Shown: positions 3,467 to 12,503 of the stretch, piece after piece
Position numbering within the stretch: position 1 is the stretch's first letter
Layout: every line of letters begins with the position of its first letter
Assembly (NCBI GenBank): GCA_021817915.1
Contig: JAKAFV010000003.1
Coordinates: 1-12,503, forward strand
Length of the DNA: 12,503 nt
From: a bacterium
GTDB lineage: Bacteria; Patescibacteriota; Minisyncoccia; UBA6257; UBA9933
Reading direction: 5' to 3'
Position numbers and translations under genes: made by a program
Notes under the pieces: generated by a model
What the model was told of the DNA's origin: nothing
The model's database searches: none
Seen by the model: only the letters and a program-made list of their open reading frames with translations

Positions 3467-3490
3467 GCGGACCGAAAATATTTCGGATTT

Positions 3491-3526
3491 ATTCGTAGAT
3501 TCGGATGGATTCGTAGTTTCGGATCG
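3491..3526. repeat. Two-copy 18-bp tandem repeat before gpmI
   Basis: Copy one (3491-3508) and copy two (3509-3526) both start ATTCGTAG and contain TTCGGAT. They differ at 2 of 18 positions. A partial third copy (ATTTCGGATTT, 3480-3490) precedes them. The array ends 6 bp before the gpmI ATG, so it takes up the ribosome-loading region, where no Shine-Dalgarno is seen. Confidence 0.7.
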
Positions 3527-5146: not shown

Positions 5147-6358
5147 AAGTCTGTTGTATTTCGCCATTCTTTCCGGCGCTGAAGGAGCGCCGGCTTTTAT
5201 TCCAAAGGCTCCCGTTCCAGCCGCCAAATTCGCTATAAAATCATCCATTGTTTCTCCGCTGCGATGAGAAACAACAAATTGCCAGCCGTTTTCAGAAGCA
5301 AGTTTAATAACATTTATCGTTTCAGTCAGCGTGCCTATCTGGTTTGGTTTTATCAAAATCGCGTTGCCTGATTTCTTTTCTATCGCTCTTTTTAATCTTT
5401 CGGGATTAGTCGTCGTTAAATCATCGGCGATTATTAAAGTTTCCGGCTTGCTCTGAGTTAATTTTGTAAAATCGTCAAACGACTCTTCGAAAAATGGGTC
5501 TTCGATTGAAAAAATATTATATGCCTCGATTAATTTAATATAAAAATCTTTCAGTTCTTCCGCAGAATATTCTTTCTCGCCAATTAAATAATATCCGCGT
5601 TTACCAGCGTTTGATCCGCGTAAATCTGCGTTATGAAAGAACTGCGTCGCCGCTACATCCAATCCGATTTTTAAAGGATAATTGCTTTTTACAATCAAAT
5701 CCGCCAAGATTTCAATCGCTTGTTCGTTGCTCTCAAAAGGACATGAAAATCCCGCCTCATCGCCAAGCATGACATTTTCTTTTCCGAATTTTTCCTCAAG
5801 AGTTTCGTTTAATTTTCTGTAAAATTCTTGGCCTAATCCCAAAGCAATGCCGAAATCTTGCGTTTTCGGGATTATCTGAAATTCTTGAAAATCAAGCTTG
5901 CTCTGCGGATTAGTGGCATGCGCTCCGCCGTTTATAACATTAAAAAATGGTCTCGGAAGTTGGCTAACTTGAGAATTAGATAATTGGCTAATTTGTCTAA
6001 TATATTGAAATAATTCTTTATTTTCCGTTTTCGCTTTCAACCTTGCAAAAGCCAAGGATAAAACCAAAGTTAAATTTCCGCCAAGATTGCCTTTATTTTT
6101 GGAACCGTCTAGATAATTTAAAAAGTCGTCAAATTCTTGCTGGCTGTTAAATTCCCGGTTTAAAATACCGAGTTTTGTTTCGTTGAATTTTTTAACGGCA
6201 AGCTGCGGCTCTAAAACAAACGCCTCATGCGCTCCCCGGCTTTTTCCGCTTGGCGCCGAAGCAACAGCCGATAAATTATCGGCTTTTAACTCGGCCTCTA
6301 AAGTATCTTTACCGCGAGAGTCTTTTATTATTTTTAAATTAGCGTCAGAAATTTTCAT
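5120..6358 (-). CDS. eno: Enolase (phosphopyruvate hydratase)
   Basis: This 412-residue enzyme (typical 415-435) dehydrates 2-phosphoglycerate to PEP. The N-terminal capping domain keeps KDSRG (12-16) and a mobile loop SGKSRG (37-42) in place of the usual SGASTG; the loop serine S40 is retained. The barrel domain has H147 (NGGAHA), E159 (FQEFQI), metal ligands D234 (GLDVAA), E286 (SIEDPF) and D312 (ADDL), acid/base residues E201 (GDEAGF) and K337 (LIKPNQIGT), the SHRSGET loop (364-370) and K388 (KAGAP). The protein is divergent but catalytically complete. Two loops are repeat-derived: residues 122-135 (ISQLSNSQVSQLP) and 243-255 (NADLRGSNAGKRG). The C-terminal tail is also repeat-coded. The start lies 2 bp after a small membrane protein gene, suggesting coupling. 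Confidence 0.96.
   Translation of the reverse strand: MKISDANLKIIKDSRGKDTLEAELKADNLSAVASAPSGKSRGAHEAFVLEPQLAVKKFNETKLGILNREFNSQQEFDDFLNYLDGSKNKGNLGGNLTLVLSLAFARLKAKTENKELFQYIRQISQLSNSQVSQLPRPFFNVINGGAHATNPQSKLDFQEFQIIPKTQDFGIALGLGQEFYRKLNETLEEKFGKENVMLGDEAGFSCPFESNEQAIEILADLIVKSNYPLKIGLDVAATQFFHNADLRGSNAGKRGYYLIGEKEYSAEELKDFYIKLIEAYNIFSIEDPFFEESFDDFTKLTQSKPETLIIADDLTTTNPERLKRAIEKKSGNAILIKPNQIGTLTETINVIKLASENGWQFVVSHRSGETMDDFIANLAAGTGAFGIKAGAPSAPERMAKYNRLLRIGELGS
5594..5632. repeat. CCGCGT/CTGCGT tandem repeat inside eno
   Basis: About four degenerate units of 10-11 bp (ATCCGCGTTT, ACCAGCGTTTG, ATCCGCGTAA, ATCTGCGTTA) lie in frame in eno. They encode residues about 243-255 (NADLRGSNAGKRG), where other enolases have a shorter surface loop after DVAASEFY. 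Confidence 0.65.
5956..6000. repeat. Octamer array inside eno
   Basis: Units TTGGCTAA, CTTGAGAA, TTAGATAA, TTGGCTAA on the + strand are read in frame on the minus strand as ISQLSNSQVSQLP (about 123-135), the variable loop just before PRPFFNVINGG. This is the same family as the arrays at 5072-5146. Confidence 0.7.
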
Positions 6359-6614: not shown

Positions 6615-6643
6615 TTCCTGTGCGCTCTAACGCGTTAGAGCGC
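6615..6643. repeat. Palindromic repeat, copy 1 (downstream of the TrpR-like gene)
   Basis: It contains the perfect 22-bp palindrome 6622-6643 (GCGCTCTAACG and its complement). Together with the preceding TTCCTGT it is identical over 29 bp to the copy at 7113-7141. It sits 18 bp beyond the stop of the TrpR-like gene and could form a terminator-like hairpin, but no T-run follows. Confidence 0.85.
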
Positions 6644-6661: not shown

Positions 6662-7057
6662 TTAAGGATGCGTGCCTATAGCGTCAAAATATGGTTTCCA
6701 ACGGCCCTTGCCATACGGCGGTAAAAATATTCTTTCTTTTTTCTTTTTCGGTTTAGACATGGCTGAATATTTCTTAGATTTTCTAATGGATTTTTCTAAA
6801 CCTCTTTTAATAAAACTTATTGTATTATAATGCACATCCGCAATTTCCGCTATTTTTCGATAAGAATAGTTATTTTTCAATAAAAATAAAACTGCTAATC
6901 GTTTTTCTAAAAGATTTATTTCTTTTTGTGTTAAAGCTTTATCTAAAATTTTTATTAGCTGGCTTTCGTCTCTAGCGCCGACAATCTCTTTTAAAAAATC
7001 CTTCCAGATTTTATTTTTGAAAGTTCCGTCAAAATATTTTTTACTCGTAAAGCTCAT
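6662..7057 (-). CDS. TrpR/YerC-type helix-turn-helix DNA-binding protein
   Basis: This 131-residue protein belongs to the TrpR-like superfamily, closest in pattern to YerC/YecD. Residues 24-60 (IVGARDESQLIKILDKALTQ and EKRLAVLFLL) form the helical dimer core. Residues 66-86 (YRKIAEIADVHYNTISFIKRG) are the helix-turn-helix. The family is usually about 100 residues; here a basic tail is added (KKYSAMSKPKKKKERIFLPPYGKGRW, about 96-120), which may add non-specific DNA contacts. Nothing shows tryptophan binding, and there are no trp genes nearby, so a trp repressor function should not be assumed. The gene stands alone on the minus strand, bracketed by two identical palindromic repeats. No Shine-Dalgarno is seen before the ATG. 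Confidence 0.85.
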   Translation of the reverse strand: MSFTSKKYFDGTFKNKIWKDFLKEIVGARDESQLIKILDKALTQKEINLLEKRLAVLFLLKNNYSYRKIAEIADVHYNTISFIKRGLEKSIRKSKKYSAMSKPKKKKERIFLPPYGKGRWKPYFDAIGTHP

Positions 7058-7112: not shown

Positions 7113-7144
7113 TTCCTGTGCGCTCTAACGCGTTAGAGCGCACA
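7113..7144. repeat. Palindromic repeat, copy 2 (upstream of the TrpR-like gene)
   Basis: A perfect 28-bp palindrome (7117-7144, centre ACGCGT) lies 59 bp upstream of the TrpR-like ATG. Positions 7113-7141 match 6615-6643 exactly and in the same orientation, 498 bp apart. It could be an operator for the regulator, a mobile palindromic element or a terminator for the upstream operon. Confidence 0.85.
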
Positions 7145-7796: not shown

Positions 7797-10220
7797 TTAT
7801 TTCCTTAATTTCTTTTCTTTCTCATAAACCCTTGAAGTTGTTTTTATAACCGTGTCCGGGTTCAAAGACATGCTTTCAATACCTTCTCCCACCAAAAATT
7901 CGGCGAATTCCGGATAATCCGAAGGCGCTTGTCCGCAAATGCCGATATATTTTTTGCGTTTCCGGCATTTCTGGATAACCTCGGAAATCAGCTTTTTAAC
8001 CGATTCGTCTTTCTCATTTGCGATACCGCGGACTAATTCAGAGGCGTCACGGTCTATGCCAACCGTTAATTGCGTTAAATCATTTGAACCAATACTCATG
8101 CCGTCAAAAACATCTAAAAATTCATCCGCTAAAACAACATTTGAAGGAATTTCGCACATGACAAAAATCTTTAACAGGTTTAAGGTTGAAGGTTTAAGGT
8201 TTAAGGTTTTTTTAATTATATTTACTACTTTCTTCCCTTCTTCTACTGTCCGGCAAAAAGGCACCATCACCGCTACGTTATCAAGCTTCATTTCCTCGCG
8301 GACTTTTTTTATGGCTTCTAATTCTAAAACAAAAGCCGGAGCAAAATTTGGATGATAATAACGCGAAGCGCCGCGCCAGCCAATCATTGGATTTTCTTCT
8401 TGCGGTTCATAAATTTCCCCGCCAATTAAAGTGCGGTACTCGTTTGTTTTAAAATCGGAAAATCTCACAATCACCTGTTTGGGATAAAATGCCGCGCCGA
8501 TTTTCGCGATTCCATAAGCAAGCTTATCAACATAAAACTGCTTTTTGTTTTTATAACCCGCTGTTTTTTTGTCTATGGCTTTTTTTATGGCCGCCGACAT
8601 CTTGCCGTAATTTATCAGCGCGTTTGGATGAATGCCTATGTCACTGGCGATAATGAATTCTTCCCGCGCCAATCCCACGCCGTCATTCGGCAAAAATGAT
8701 TTTTCAAAAGCCGTGTCCGAAGTGGCGATATTCATCATTATTTTTGTTTTCGGCTTCGGGAATTTTTTAACATCATTTTCTATCACCTTAAATTTCAGAG
8801 CGCCGTTATAAACTATGCCCTCGCTGGAAGTAGTATCCACAGTAATAGTCTGGCCCGTTTTTATCCTTCTCGTGGCGCTACCAGAGCCTACAACACAAGG
8901 AATGCCCAATTCCCGGGAAACTATAGCCGCATGGCTGGTTCTACCGCCCTTATCCGTCACAATTGCCGAAGCAATTTTCATAATCGGCTCCCAATCCGGG
9001 TCTGTCATATCGGTTACCAAAACCTCGCCCGCTTTAAATTGGCTTATTTGTTTGGCGTCTAAAATTATCCGCGCTTTGCCCGTAGCGATTTTATTTCCTA
9101 CTGAAGCGCCCTTAACTAAAACTTGAGGCCTGGAGCTTGAAGCTTGAAGCTCATATTCTTTTATTTTTGAAAAATCTCTTCGGCTATGAACCGTTTCAGG
9201 CCTTGCCTGAACAATAAAAAGCTCTCCCGTTTTCCCGTCTTTCGCCCATTCCATGTCCATCGGCGTCCATTTTTTTCGCAAGGCCGTGTAATGTTTTTCT
9301 ATCATCGTCCCCCATTTCGCCAATGTTAAAATTTCCGCCTCGCTTAAAACAAATTTTTCCCTTTCAGTCTTGCTCGTATCTACAACTTTAGTTTTTTTAA
9401 TGCCTTGGCCCGCCGTAGAATAAACCATCTTGCGAGTTTTATCACCCAACCTTTTATCAATAATCGCGTTTGTTTTTTTGAAAATTAAGAATTCATCTGG
9501 GGTTACTTCTCCTTGCACAACCATTTCTCCCAGCCCCCAGGCTCCGCTTATCAAAACCACGTCTGGAAAGCCGGATTCCGTATCAAGCGTGAACATTATT
9601 CCCGAGCACCCAAGGTCGGAACGCACCATTTTTTGCACGCCCACCGAAAGCGCCATTTTTGTATAATCGAAACCCTTGTCCGATCTGTAAGAAATTGCCC
9701 TATCCGTAAATAATGAAGCAAAAGACTCTTTTACTGCCTGCAAAACCTCTTTGGCGCCCCTAATATTCAAGAAAGTTTCATATTGGCCCGCGAATGAAGC
9801 GTCTGGCGCGTCTTCCGTCGTACCGCTGGTGCGGACCGCCACATCCGAATTTTTGCCGTATTCTTTTTCCAGTTTTTGATAATTTAAAACTATTTCTTTT
9901 TCAAGCTCTTCCGGCAAATCAACGCTTTTTATCGTTTCCCTGATTAATTTTCCGCGCTTGGCTAAATCCGGAAGATTTTGCGTATTCAAACCGGCTAATG
10001 TTTGTTTTATAAAAGATTTTAAATTTTGCTTGCCGGATTTTAATTTCGCTTCTTCTAAAAAGAATCTGTAAGCGCTTGCCGTTACCGCGAAACCATCGGG
10101 CACATTTAAGCCTTTTGGCTTTAAATATCGAATCATTTCCCCAAGCGAACCATTCTTTCCCCCTACTTCCAAAACGTTTTTTATGCCAACCTCTTTATAT
10201 TGTTTAATAAAATTTTTCAT
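7797..10220 (-). CDS. ppsA: Phosphoenolpyruvate synthase
   Basis: This 807-residue enzyme (E. coli has 792) interconverts pyruvate and PEP with ATP to AMP and phosphate. The N-terminal ATP-grasp domain (about 10-345) starts VGGKNGSLGEM and ends QARPETVHS. The swivelling phosphohistidine domain (about 365-470) has the catalytic H430 in GGRTSHAAIVSRELGIP. The C-terminal PEP/pyruvate barrel (about 490-800) has R586 (VRFSDFKTNEY), R616 (GWRGASRYY), the CEIPSN strand, GSNDLTQL and the catalytic C762 in GICGQAPSDYPEF. PPDK is less likely because the C-terminus matches PpsA. Two loops are repeat-coded: 357-366 (ELQASSSRPQ), between the ATP-grasp and His domains, and 671-684 (containing NLKPSTLNL). 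The start overlaps the glycerate kinase stop by 4 bp (ATGA). Confidence 0.96.
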   Translation of the reverse strand: MKNFIKQYKEVGIKNVLEVGGKNGSLGEMIRYLKPKGLNVPDGFAVTASAYRFFLEEAKLKSGKQNLKSFIKQTLAGLNTQNLPDLAKRGKLIRETIKSVDLPEELEKEIVLNYQKLEKEYGKNSDVAVRTSGTTEDAPDASFAGQYETFLNIRGAKEVLQAVKESFASLFTDRAISYRSDKGFDYTKMALSVGVQKMVRSDLGCSGIMFTLDTESGFPDVVLISGAWGLGEMVVQGEVTPDEFLIFKKTNAIIDKRLGDKTRKMVYSTAGQGIKKTKVVDTSKTEREKFVLSEAEILTLAKWGTMIEKHYTALRKKWTPMDMEWAKDGKTGELFIVQARPETVHSRRDFSKIKEYELQASSSRPQVLVKGASVGNKIATGKARIILDAKQISQFKAGEVLVTDMTDPDWEPIMKIASAIVTDKGGRTSHAAIVSRELGIPCVVGSGSATRRIKTGQTITVDTTSSEGIVYNGALKFKVIENDVKKFPKPKTKIMMNIATSDTAFEKSFLPNDGVGLAREEFIIASDIGIHPNALINYGKMSAAIKKAIDKKTAGYKNKKQFYVDKLAYGIAKIGAAFYPKQVIVRFSDFKTNEYRTLIGGEIYEPQEENPMIGWRGASRYYHPNFAPAFVLELEAIKKVREEMKLDNVAVMVPFCRTVEEGKKVVNIIKKTLNLKPSTLNLLKIFVMCEIPSNVVLADEFLDVFDGMSIGSNDLTQLTVGIDRDASELVRGIANEKDESVKKLISEVIQKCRKRKKYIGICGQAPSDYPEFAEFLVGEGIESMSLNPDTVIKTTSRVYEKEKKLRK
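8177..8209. repeat. Heptamer array (GGTTTAA) inside ppsA
   Basis: Units are GGTTTAA, GGTTGAA, GGTTTAA, GGTTTAA and GGTTT, 4.7 copies with one substitution. On the coding strand they read about TLNLKPSTLNL (672-682). The single changed unit puts TCA (S678) where a pure array would give TAA in frame. Confidence 0.85.
9122..9149. repeat. Heptamer array (CTTGAAG) inside ppsA
   Basis: Four units, CTTGAGG, CCTGGAG, CTTGAAG and CTTGAAG, are read on the minus strand as LQASSSRPQ (358-366) in the linker between the ATP-grasp and phosphohistidine domains. This unit has no stop in any sense frame. Confidence 0.75.
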
Positions 10221-11575
10221 ATTTTTAATATTAACATCAAATCCGACACATTAAAAGTTTTTTTGTCCGTGAAAATTAAATCCCCGGTCTTTTTGAAAAA
10301 ATCCAAAGTATTGTGGCCTTTAAGATACTTTTCGCGGTCCAATTTTAATTTTCCCGCCTTATTAATGGTCAAAATGTCGCCGATAGCCCCGGCAGATTCC
10401 GTATTATCCCTGCCATCGCTGGCGAAAGAAACTATAACTAAGTTATGAGTTATAAGCTGTGAGTTGAGAGTTAAAGACCCGAGCACCGCTTCCATATTTC
10501 TTCCTCCTTTGCCCGGATTTTTGCCTAAAATAATAGTTGTTTCCCCTCCTGCCAAAACCGCTCTCGGTTCGTCTACTTTCCTATAGGAAAGTAGACGAAT
10601 TAATGGCGTCAAGGCATTTTTCGCCTCGCCTTTTAAATTATAAGAGTAAATTTTTTGTTTAAATTCTAATTTTTTCGCTTTTTCCGCCATCGCCATTGTG
10701 GGCTCGCGATTGGATATAAATAAAATATTTTTTACTTTTTCAAAATACTTTTTGTTTTTCGGCGTCTCATTTAATATGTATTTTGTATTTTGTATTTTGT
10801 ATTTTGCCAAAACTTTTTCCGCATCTTTTTTTGTTGTTTTATCATAAATTGTCGGGCCTGAAGCAACCATTGATAAACCCCAAAGGAGAGACTCCGTCTC
10901 CCTACGGGGCAGGTCCCCTTTAAAATCAAGAGGGACGTCTGCTGTTATTAAAGATATTATACTTGCGGGATAAGCGGTTTTTGCCAAACCCCCACCTTTT
11001 ACTTCCGACAAGTGTTTTCTTATTGTATTAAGTTCTACTATGTTGGCTCCCGCGTTAGTCAGTTTGCCAAAAATATCCCGCGAGGCTTTTAATTCTTTTT
11101 CAGAAGCGCAAAGCAAGGCCGAACCTCCTCCGCAAATAAAAGAAATTATCAAATCGTCTTTTCCGGCATTTTTCGCCAGCTCAATTATCTTTTTGGTTAT
11201 TTTTATATTTTGAGCCGATGGCAGTGGATGGGTGCCGGTTAAAATTTCTAATTTCGAATTTCTAATTTCTAATTTCGGTTTTTCAGTGTCTACGGCAATT
11301 CCCTTATTTAATTTACTGCCAAGAATTTTTGCTAGCGCCGCGCTTGCCAGAGCAGAGCCCTTGCCAATCCCAATAACAAAAACGTTTTTATAATTATTTA
11401 AATTAATGCTATGATGCATCATAGCATTAGAAATAAACAATTTATTGCCGTTTAATTTTATTTTATTTTTAACCGCTTTTTCTATATCTATTGCTTCATA
11501 GCCCGCCTCAACGATTTGAAGCGCTTTCTTCCGAAGCGGAGTCTTTGCCAAATTTTTAAAATTAGTGATTATCAT
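10217..11575 (-). CDS. Glycerate 2-kinase, MOFRL (GckA/TtuD) family
   Basis: This 452-residue kinase phosphorylates glycerate to 2-phosphoglycerate, which feeds enolase. The N-terminal DUF4147 domain has VIGIGKGSA (67-75, catalytic K72), GTHPLPS (114-120), CGGGSALL (148-155) and NTIRKHLSEVKGGGLA (183-198), and VASGPT follows at 237-242. The C-terminal MOFRL domain has LAGGETT (341-347), GKGGRNMEA (356-364), SFASDGRDNTESAG (383-396) and NVSDLMLIL (442-450). The gene is unusual in holding six repeat-derived stretches in frame: about 50-56 (palindrome), 101-112, 218-233 (double hairpin), 258-266, 329-338 (32-bp palindrome) and 368-379. It starts 2 bp after ileS and its TGA overlaps the ppsA ATG, so it is in the same operon. 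All signature motifs are intact, so it is probably active. Confidence 0.93.
   Translation of the reverse strand: MIITNFKNLAKTPLRKKALQIVEAGYEAIDIEKAVKNKIKLNGNKLFISNAMMHHSINLNNYKNVFVIGIGKGSALASAALAKILGSKLNKGIAVDTEKPKLEIRNSKLEILTGTHPLPSAQNIKITKKIIELAKNAGKDDLIISFICGGGSALLCASEKELKASRDIFGKLTNAGANIVELNTIRKHLSEVKGGGLAKTAYPASIISLITADVPLDFKGDLPRRETESLLWGLSMVASGPTIYDKTTKKDAEKVLAKYKIQNTKYILNETPKNKKYFEKVKNILFISNREPTMAMAEKAKKLEFKQKIYSYNLKGEAKNALTPLIRLLSYRKVDEPRAVLAGGETTIILGKNPGKGGRNMEAVLGSLTLNSQLITHNLVIVSFASDGRDNTESAGAIGDILTINKAGKLKLDREKYLKGHNTLDFFKKTGDLIFTDKKTFNVSDLMLILKI
10436..10477. repeat. Degenerate heptamer array inside the glycerate kinase gene
   Basis: Six units keep 7-bp spacing: AACTAAG, TTATGAG, TTATAAG, CTGTGAG, TTGAGAG, TTAAAGA. 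They are read on the minus strand as LTLNSQLITHNL (368-379). The CTGTGAG unit gives CAG in frame where the TTATGAG consensus would give TAA. Confidence 0.65.
10568..10599. repeat. Perfect 32-bp palindrome inside the glycerate kinase gene
   Basis: The left half runs TTCGTCTACTTTCCTA and the right half is its exact complement, with no loop bases. It encodes about SYRKVDEPR (330-338), just before the conserved LAGGETT strand, where family members have a variable linker. Confidence 0.9.
10778..10805. repeat. Heptamer array (GTATTTT x4) inside the glycerate kinase gene
   Basis: Four perfect GTATTTT units are read on the minus strand as KYKIQNTKY (258-266). The same unit forms the ileS array at 12431-12469. 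The unit has no stop in any frame on the coding strand, and the array is unmutated. Confidence 0.9.
10882..10921. repeat. Double-hairpin element inside the glycerate kinase gene
   Basis: GAGAC-TCC-GTCTC (10888-10900) and GGGG-CAGGT-CCCC (10906-10918) lie within outer arms AAAGG (10882-10886) and CCTTT (10917-10921). It codes for about 218-233 (FKGDLPRRETESLLWG), an apparent insert of roughly 14 residues between TADVP and the conserved VASGPT motif. Confidence 0.7.
11243..11277. repeat. Heptamer array (AATTTCT/G x5) inside the glycerate kinase gene
   Basis: Units are AATTTCT, AATTTCG, AATTTCT, AATTTCT and AATTTCG, read on the minus strand as KLEIRNSKLEI (101-111). The AATTTCG in the second unit makes S107 TCG, where a pure array would give TAG. 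Confidence 0.9.
11404..11429. repeat. Perfect 26-bp palindrome inside the glycerate kinase gene
   Basis: TAATGCTATGATG and its exact complement meet at ATGCAT. It encodes NAMMHHS (50-56), a short insert before the conserved NVFVIGIGKGS strand. Confidence 0.85.
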
Positions 11576-11577
11576 AG

Positions 11578-12503
11578 TTAAATCTTTTTAACCCCCGCCC
11601 AAATAGCAAAATTTTCCATTTTTGTTTCGGTTTCGGCGTCAAACTTGTCAGTCCGGCTGAAATAAATATCTTTAGCGCAAATTTTTTCTTTAAATTCGCT
11701 TATATTCTTTTCTATCGCCGAACGCGCTTCCGCCGGAACTTCCAGCCATAAATTAATTTTGTCTTTCGGCAAAAGACCGGCTTCTTTCCTTAAATCTTGT
11801 ATCGTCCTTGCCGCTTCCCTTAATAATCCTTCCGCTTTCAATTCCGGCGTAATTTTTATGTTCAACTCAATCTCTTGGGATATTTTAGCGTCAAAAACGA
11901 CTTCTTTAACATTTATTTCGTCGGCTAAAATTTTTAATAATTCTTTTTTATTTCTTAATTCTGAATTCTTAATTCTTAATTCTGAAAGCGGCTGTCTCAC
12001 CTTAATTCCTTCCTTACTCCTTAATTCCAAAGCCAGCGAAGCAATTTTTCTAATCTCGGCCATTGAATCCAATAAATCTTTGTCTATTAATTTTTTATCG
12101 GAAACCGGCCACTTTTCTAGGTGAACACTCGCTATTCTCTTGTTATCACTCGTCATTTTATATATCGCTTCCGCCACAAACGGCGCAAACGGCGCAAGAA
12201 TTTTTGAAAATTCCGCCAAAACATATTTCGTCGTTTCTATTGCGGCAATTTTGTCTTTACTTTCCGATTTAAACCTTTCGCGCGAACGCCTGATATGCCA
12301 AGTTGAAAGGTCGTCAATAAAACCGCCTAACGGCCTAACCGCTTTATCAAGTTCGTAATTTTCAAGCGAATTTAAAACTTCCTGTTTTAATTGTTCCAGC
12401 CTGGCAATAATCCACTTATCCAGAATATTAGTATTTTGTATTTTGTATTTTGTATTTTGTATTTTGTATCTAGCATATAACTCATAAAACTTATAAGTAT
12501 TCC
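11578..12503 (-). CDS. ileS: Isoleucyl-tRNA synthetase, C-terminal part (cut by window edge)
   Basis: The frame is open to the window edge, so the 5' part lies beyond 12503; 307 residues are visible. The ATG at 12219 is internal. NTYKFYELYA and LDKWIIARLEQL, then DDLSTWHIRRSRERF, mark the anticodon-binding domain entry. LAPFAPFVAEAIY, SVHLEKWP and ALELRSKEGIKVRQPLSEL mark the C-terminal domain typical of the longer, eukaryote-like IleRS form (with DUF5915). The enzyme charges tRNA-Ile. The catalytic HIGH/KMSKS region is not in the window. Two heptamer arrays are in frame: RYKIQNTKYKIQNT just before LDKW, and SELRIKNSELRN after VRQPL. It heads the visible operon; glycerate kinase starts 2 bp after its stop. 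Confidence 0.93.
   Translation of the reverse strand, partial: NTYKFYELYARYKIQNTKYKIQNTNILDKWIIARLEQLKQEVLNSLENYELDKAVRPLGGFIDDLSTWHIRRSRERFKSESKDKIAAIETTKYVLAEFSKILAPFAPFVAEAIYKMTSDNKRIASVHLEKWPVSDKKLIDKDLLDSMAEIRKIASLALELRSKEGIKVRQPLSELRIKNSELRNKKELLKILADEINVKEVVFDAKISQEIELNIKITPELKAEGLLREAARTIQDLRKEAGLLPKDKINLWLEVPAEARSAIEKNISEFKEKICAKDIYFSRTDKFDAETETKMENFAIWAGVKKI
11955..11986. repeat. Heptamer array (TTAATTC) inside ileS
   Basis: Units are TTAATTC, TGAATTC, TTAATTC, TTAATTC and TGAA, read on the minus strand as SELRIKNSELR. Both TGA variants fall 21 nt apart and code TCA serine, exactly where a pure array would code TAA. Confidence 0.9.
12431..12469. repeat. Heptamer array (GTATTTT x5.6) inside ileS
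   Basis: Five perfect GTATTTT units plus GTAT are read in frame on the minus strand as YKIQNTKYKIQNT, which has a seven-residue period. It lies in the variable linker before LDKWIIARL, and is the same unit and phase as the array in the glycerate kinase gene. Confidence 0.95.

Follow-up and report, generated by a model that had tools for sequence, protein, structure and literature searches.

How can a gene hold a tandem array whose unit of 7 nucleotides (nt) is not a multiple of three? Repeats inside genes are expected to have units divisible by three, according to the portions available of PMC9879509 and PMC4679880. The question is raised by the window, a stretch of 12,503 nt (GenBank assembly GCA_021817915.1, contig JAKAFV010000003.1) that was analysed at its full length. 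It is contig 69 of a bin of 461,545 bases in 84 contigs with a completeness of 76.8%, from a tiny, uncultured bacterium close to Candidatus Wolfebacteria. Seven period-7 arrays are situated in its ppsA, glycerate kinase and ileS genes. The same period was found in genes, in gaps between genes and in the 23S rRNA. The heptamer words often differ between species at constant loop length and in register, and a family of imperfect palindromes with the same phasing is dispersed in the genome.

Period-7 arrays in three core genes

An earlier note on this DNA had reported seven arrays with different words at constant period, placed in open frames between conserved motifs. Tandem Repeats Finder (TRF) at a minimum score of 30 lists all seven; the words differ as that note says, and conserved motifs do lie on either side of the arrays. 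The host genes and arrays are as follows.

7797..10220, minus strand: ppsA (phosphoenolpyruvate synthase), host gene, open throughout; Pfam PPDK_N/PEP-utilizers
8176..8209, minus strand: period-7 array in ppsA; TRF score 61; coding word TAAACCT; orthologous loop pps2
9122..9151, minus strand: degenerate period-7 array in ppsA; TRF score 39; coding word CTTCAAG
10217..11575, minus strand: glycerate 2-kinase, host gene, open throughout; Pfam DUF4147+MOFRL
10441..10473, minus strand: degenerate period-7 array, glycerate kinase loop C; TRF score 31; orthologous loops compared
10777..10806, minus strand: period-7 array, glycerate kinase loop B; TRF score 60; coding word AAAATAC
11243..11276, minus strand: period-7 array, glycerate kinase loop A; TRF score 61; coding word GAAATTA
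11578..12501, minus strand: 3' part of ileS (anticodon-binding domain and C-terminus), host gene; Pfam Anticodon_1+DUF5915
11948..11983, minus strand: period-7 array, ileS loop 2; TRF score 58; coding word GAATTAA
12431..12469, minus strand: period-7 array, ileS loop 1, preceding the anticodon-binding domain; TRF score 78; coding word AAAATAC

Under a stricter lag score (+1/-3, at least 12) five of the period-7 arrays stay, with 9122-9151 and 10441-10473 falling below the threshold, while 100 dinucleotide-shuffled versions of the window contain no such array at all. At this threshold the window also has three arrays of other periods (8, 9 and 18). The ileS frame reads without interruption from 12501 down to the stop at 11578-11580; its other end lies beyond the contig. 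One unit of array 8176..8209 reads TCAACCT and one unit of array 11948..11983 contains TCA, each at a position where TAA would end the frame. In the AlphaFold model of glycerate kinase (mean pLDDT, predicted local distance difference test, 81.9) the arrays, at about residues 101-111, 260-269 and 369-379, are mostly coil between secondary-structure elements.

The same kinase carries two further features. A perfect palindrome around GTCTACTTTCCTATAGGAAAGTAGAC lies in frame at 10568-10599, and its residues are missing in most aligned relatives. An in-frame insert (KGDLPRRETESLLWG) at 10882-10921 has a pLDDT below 50 and is not in the aligned relatives shown. A second frame of the genome (L251, G000:C34:3616-3933; L, G and P numbers are our handles) matches ileS residues 12-115 (E 4.5e-12) and has two AAAATAC units at its start, where loop 1 lies in ileS; it is probably a paralogous tRNA ligase.

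Period 7 across the genome and its relatives

Arrays of the genome were surveyed in 146,769 bases, a sampled third made up of the window and 20 of the other 83 contigs. At periods of 2-40 and a strict score of at least 12, 28 arrays were found, 15 of period 7 and 4 of period 14, as expected from the earlier proposal that repeat periods centre on 7. Different words at this constant period recur in the sampled genome and in relatives. Match runs of at least 8 in coding DNA of the genome numbered 28 at lag 7 against 3.0 in codon shuffles, 17 and 24 at lags 14 and 21 (2.7 and 3.3 in shuffles), and 6, 7 and 4 at lags 5, 6 and 8 (3.3, 7.3 and 1.7 in shuffles). A few other lags are raised, with small counts (lag 29, 6 against 1.3). 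The relatives gave 144 runs at lag 7 against 27 in one shuffle, and 50 kb of E. coli K-12, with unmatched composition, gave zero arrays.

Named genomes gave 167 relatives of the glycerate kinase, of which 80 were retained. The nearest are labelled Candidatus Wolfebacteria or just 'bacterium', and the farther ones other Patescibacteria and two Bathyarchaeota. One sequence titled Spirochaetia bacterium (L118, QYPD01000003.1) matches a contig of the same genus as the window (G001:C23), arrays included, and its bin is probably mislabelled.

With duplicates masked, and with coding taken to mean any position in an open frame of 100 codons or more, without homology check, the density of period-7 and period-14 arrays per 100 kb was 11.7 coding and 21.3 noncoding in the own genome, 6.9 and 9.8 in Wolfebacteria-family relatives, 10.7 and 30.3 in Levybacteria, and 0.8 and 8.8 in other Patescibacteria together with two archaeal loci. 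Heptamer arrays are thus equally common between genes in the Wolfebacteria relatives and the other Patescibacteria, and about 9 times rarer inside genes in the latter (71 and 13 against 8 and 9; Fisher p=0.002). The main peculiarity here is therefore that the arrays are housed in genes. Periods 7 and 14 account for 14 of 21 coding arrays in the own genome, 71 of 147 in the relatives, 17 of 23 in Levybacteria and 8 of 52 in the others, where 34 of 52 have multiple-of-three periods. A period coprime to three is hence the commonest among coding arrays in two groups of Patescibacteria, in genes like ileS and ppsA.

The coding strand of 102 arrays is composed of 53% A, 16% C, 7% G and 24% T, compared with 32% A, 18% C, 22% G and 28% T in all coding DNA, and 77 of 86 coding arrays are read with the A-rich strand as the coding one. 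A private vocabulary of words in each genome was considered and rejected. Identical words were found in 38 of 615 pairs within genomes (6.2%) and in 93 of 4497 between them (2.1%), a signal that is weak because the difference disappears when up to one mismatch is allowed (14.1% v 13.3%).

Word change at constant loop length

The heptamer word of a loop often differs between orthologues of equal loop length; the words stay in register, and the pattern in the DNA goes beyond what the encoded protein accounts for. Among 21 readable DNA sequences of glycerate kinase loop A, the loop has 17 residues in nine and an array by score in eleven, with words including GAAATTA, AAAATTG, AAAATTC, AAAATCA, AAATTTC and CCGTCAA. 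The glycerate kinases of L043 and L045 (G020 and G021), 89% identical in DNA, have loop A wholly reworded at identical length and in register. Loop C of L037 and L042 is reworded likewise, with a variant of unit 3 common to both. Agreement between orthologous arrays of equal length is highest at offset 0 (0.63 for glyA, 0.67 for ile2) and lower at +-1 (0.47-0.50 and 0.42-0.43). Three arrays are the same, copy number included, in different species at 80-90% identity.

The earlier note had named orthologues with the same loops in non-repeat form as evidence against its reading, and on this point the result is mixed. Some orthologues carry a different heptamer word in the same loop, and others have a non-repeat loop of the same length. 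In ppsA loop 1 an array by score is present in 5 of 11 sequences, with unrelated words, and absent in L199, L200 and L208. Repeat-free loops of equal length were found for ppsA loop 1 in L199, the same-genus orthologue compared with array 9122..9151, and for ileS loop 2 in L241-L244.

Protein orthologues of glycerate kinase were readable in 90 of 120 listed. Loop A has 15 residues in 33 of them and 17 in 36 (69 of 90 together). In another 17 it has 24-29 residues; by eye, 15 of these contain other inserts and none is a plain array longer by 7 residues, while in P0103 and P0119 the loop appears as an extended heptamer stretch containing the conserved step of the palindrome described below. In the relatives L032, L033, L037 and L049 these glycerate kinase loops carry other in-frame repeat classes, such as GGACATCCGATGTCC palindromes, RLRQDFGGQV and a 28-nt direct repeat.

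A dispersed palindrome with heptamer phasing

When the masked sample, about 2.6 Mb in size, was searched in three nhmmer rounds, a repeat emerged at 20 places, of which 11 are intergenic, 5 partly coding and 4 coding. Two of the four coding places are loop A in the glycerate kinases of G006 and G016 and retain the AAACAAAT-type step. The element is an imperfect palindrome of about 127 nt with inverted ends, which has AAA every 7 nt in its left half and TTT every 7 nt in its right. In 12 aligned copies this phasing is interrupted by the conserved AAACAAAT-type step, and the arms outside the step measure about 25-31 nt. The consensus of 33 places is phased for AA/TT at lag 7 (autocorrelation 0.68 and 0.70), with a mean pairwise identity of only 0.63. 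All eight folded copies fall below the mean of the shuffles (z -3.0 to -6.0), and at 4 of the 14 predicted pairs both partners are changed in one copy or another.

The covariance model R1 gave 31 matches in the own genome, which are 16 places, 15 of them matched on both strands and so counted twice. Twelve of the own places were read. On one or both sides of 11 of them the edge of an open frame is at most 12 nt away; a frame of 60 codons encloses none of the twelve, and one is located in the 23S rRNA. With the own genome included, R1 matches 28 of 41 genomes of the relatives set (E<=0.01) and at least 87 of 286 genomes of the phylum (E<=1e-4); the second count is a minimum, as scoring was limited to 12 candidates per genome. 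Five loci were scanned with Rfam at gathering score: no family was found at the element places in L018, L147, L111 and L156, and the copy in L117 is within a match to large-subunit (LSU) rRNA. The intergenic and rRNA copies have the form of a dispersed imperfect palindrome of about 100-150 nt; the window arrays do not. Similar palindromes may occur outside Patescibacteria.

In the 23S rRNA of the own genome a 170-nt insert with arms (AATTTCT)4 and (AGGATTT)4 is situated at one helix (folding z=-9.1) and resembles intergenic stretches elsewhere. In three relatives this helix measures 20, 24 and 95 nt. A Group I intron (Rfam 80.8 bits) was found at L017:6673-6907, near tRNA genes and upstream of this 23S rRNA gene.

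Spacing of stop codons was rejected as a general reason for the number 7. The form CTAAATC/GATTTAG, which stops all frames, is common among the arms, but those of L111 and L117 carry CGAAATC or CCAAATC, without a stop.

Origin of the arrays inside genes

The in-gene arrays are tentatively regarded here as one-armed members of the palindromic repeat class, kept in frame by selection; the window's own arrays are no more than candidates for it. The arrays share the 7-nt period and the approximate length of the element arms. The four nhmmer places in open frames match the profile beyond the arm. In the orthologous intergenic pairs L018/L274, L156/L175 and L028/L260, by eye, a full element in one species faces a short heptamer array or smaller heptamer hairpin in the other. 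Element matches and array density are correlated over 11 family genomes (Spearman 0.87), a value that ignores kinship, includes three zeros entered by hand and omits genomes with less than 40 kb read, including the poorly fitting G012 and G016. The earlier note had held that the process counts length rather than copies one element. This was too strong, as an element family with heptamer-phased arms exists in the own genome and a few coding arrays in relatives carry part of the palindrome.

These limits of the correlation weigh against an origin from arms, and so do several other results. Only 5 of 86 coding arrays have the junction motif after them (baseline 0.7%), just two of the five (L116, L122) directly at the array end; in 3 of 86 the motif also lies ahead of the array, and because it is raised on the wrong side too, the excess is weak and partly due to A-richness. 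No window array matches R1 significantly (E 0.085-0.093), so that the window arrays were rejected as full elements; the best R1 match in the window (E 0.068) is an intergenic stretch. Many coding words fall outside AAAtnCn. Element-rich genomes of other families hold few coding arrays, with G026 showing 69 element matches and no period-7 array in 20 kb, and in the pair L117/L102 the element-free site shows no heptamers. The RNAalifold covariation term (+0.26) gives no support for the element structure. By eye no clear target-site duplication was seen at L018/L274 or L147/L148, and neither target-site duplication nor transposase nor transposition was demonstrated, no transposase search having been made. 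From this mixed evidence an arm origin is therefore only tentatively preferred, with ordinary slippage a close rival.

If the arm origin holds, the arrays would belong to a heptamer-phased repeat class spread through Patescibacteria. Its full form would be the palindrome of about 127 nt, in which letters besides the AAA/TTT phase are largely free. Single arms of about 4-5 heptamers, with the A-rich strand coding, would occupy length-tolerant protein loops. Arrays in genes would then come from such arms rather than from a separate origin, would be filtered by selection on frame and stop codons, and may have their words homogenised by copying between units through slippage or conversion.

Ordinary heptamer simple-sequence repeats (SSRs) are a quite plausible alternative. 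Replication slippage at a preferred 7-nt step would give independent births in tolerant loops, and in genes only net changes divisible by three (three units, 21 nt) would survive. A known bacterial heptamer excess and a hypothesis on the polymerase footprint are in its favour, as far as the portions available of PMC4692102 and PMC4679880 go, and the sharp lag-7 peak in own coding DNA agrees with it. Coding arrays of at least 21 nt peak at 28-34 nt. Their preference for this class over 21-27 nt (34 v 19) is stronger than that of noncoding arrays (16 v 21; Fisher p=0.056). One difference of +21 nt was seen relative to an array-free orthologue (L274). G000 and G001 share 32 reciprocal best hits at 81% amino-acid identity; at 16 compared array sites, however, only one differs in loop length by 21 nt, eight differ by 3-12 nt and four by 0, the remaining three having larger end gaps without a length call. 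The long forms of loop A include no plain array with 7 more residues, and copy number is unchanged in the three arrays shared between species. Arrays are also limited near 36 nt between genes, where 3 of 99 reach 35 nt, compared with 4.4 of 170 coding sites.

Less likely is a length-neutral rewriting, in which a copy shifted by 7 nt, made by misalignment or conversion, replaces existing sequence in place and therefore poses no frame problem. The in-register rewording of kinase loops A and C, the best agreement at offset 0 and the coexistence of arrays and array-free loops of equal length are consistent with it. Outside arrays, however, mismatches between relatives show no lag-7 templated excess (0.029-0.030 at +-7 against 0.032-0.033 at +-8), and a general 7-nt copying error is therefore rejected. 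At such high divergence, gain with compensating loss could also give equal lengths.

Selection at the protein level for a 7-residue repeat, e.g. a beta-hairpin, is very improbable. The two favoured lengths of loop A and its amino-acid identities (282 at lag 7, compared with 68 and 35 at lags 6 and 8) would suit it, but in six of seven loops the DNA has more lag-7 identity than synonymous re-codings of its peptide give (z 3.5 to 8.7), the pps2 loop being the exception (z 1.5). A lesser excess over re-coding appears at further lags in loop A (6, 8) and ile2 (4-6, 8, 10). The same arrays between genes and in the 23S rRNA largely refute this explanation. An artefact of assembly or binning, for which an incomplete 84-contig bin gives some ground, can practically be dismissed, the arrays being 20-54 nt long and recurring across many independent assemblies, some with the same place and copies.

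Other repeats in the window

The palindrome TGCGCTCTAACGCGTTAGAGCGC occurs twice, at 6621-6643 and 7119-7141, flanking a small Trp-repressor-like gene (6662-7057). A repeat based on TTCGGAT/ATTCGTAG with longer periods (18 and 36) was found at 3482-3524 and elsewhere in the genome at L022:4601-4662. Enolase contains more repeat-like stretches at 5593-5632 (ATCCGCGTTTACCAGCG type) and 5942-6000 (AATTATCTAATTCTCAAG type).

Comparison with known repeat systems

Literature searches were confined to open-licence papers. Among the matches listed, nothing was found on heptamer repeats of Patescibacteria or on this palindrome, and no case of heptamer arrays prevailing inside genes or of rewording at fixed loops. 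It is conceivable, if doubtful, that the repeats represent an undescribed system spread over the phylum and set by phase rather than sequence: a hairpin that retains little apart from AAA/TTT every 7 nt and whose arms are written, erased and reworded in place in core protein genes and 23S rRNA without breaking them. In streamlined genomes such a widespread palindrome may influence the spacing of genes, the helices of rRNA and the loops of proteins. As the words change at fixed loops, the reason why bacterial repeats favour 7 becomes testable on aligned orthologues.

The bacterial excess of heptamer SSRs and in-frame palindromes in Rickettsia are known already. The portions available of PMC4692102 and PMC4679880 describe heptameric SSRs (LSSR5-11; Mrazek and others 2007, as cited there) as over-represented in bacteria, mainly between genes, with coding SSRs tending toward multiples of three; their guess for the number 7 is slippage set by the polymerase footprint. 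The earlier note's remark that it knew of no described counterpart is therefore not supported as it stood, though these cases are mainly intergenic. The window arrays resemble these SSRs in their tandem units of exactly 7 nt above chance, many words and excess of period 7. As far as the same portions go they differ from them in that periods 7 and 14 make up 14 of the 21 coding arrays of this genome, in a length limit of about 5 units and in words that vary between species at fixed loop length.

The heptamer direct repeats TAACTGA of Beggiatoaceae are also tandem, often upstream of start codons, but consist of one fixed word and are mainly intergenic in what is available of PMC4679880. Amino-acid tandem repeats of Borgs are A-biased, lie in genes and have varied units, as here, whereas all units inside open reading frames in the available portion of PMC9879509 are divisible by three and the unit here is 7. 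Repetitive extragenic palindromic (REP) sequences and miniature inverted-repeat transposable elements (MITE), as described in parts of PMC10969869 and PMC3733652, are small dispersed intergenic palindromes like the element, in which, unlike them, little apart from the AAACAAAT-type step and the 7-nt phase is conserved. Rickettsia palindromic elements (RPE) are of similar size, and some lie in frame in metabolic genes, as here. By their description in the available part of PMC10969869 they are set apart by conserved sequence and peptide, in contrast to the heptamer phasing with free letters here, where the full copies that were read adjoin genes or sit in rRNA.

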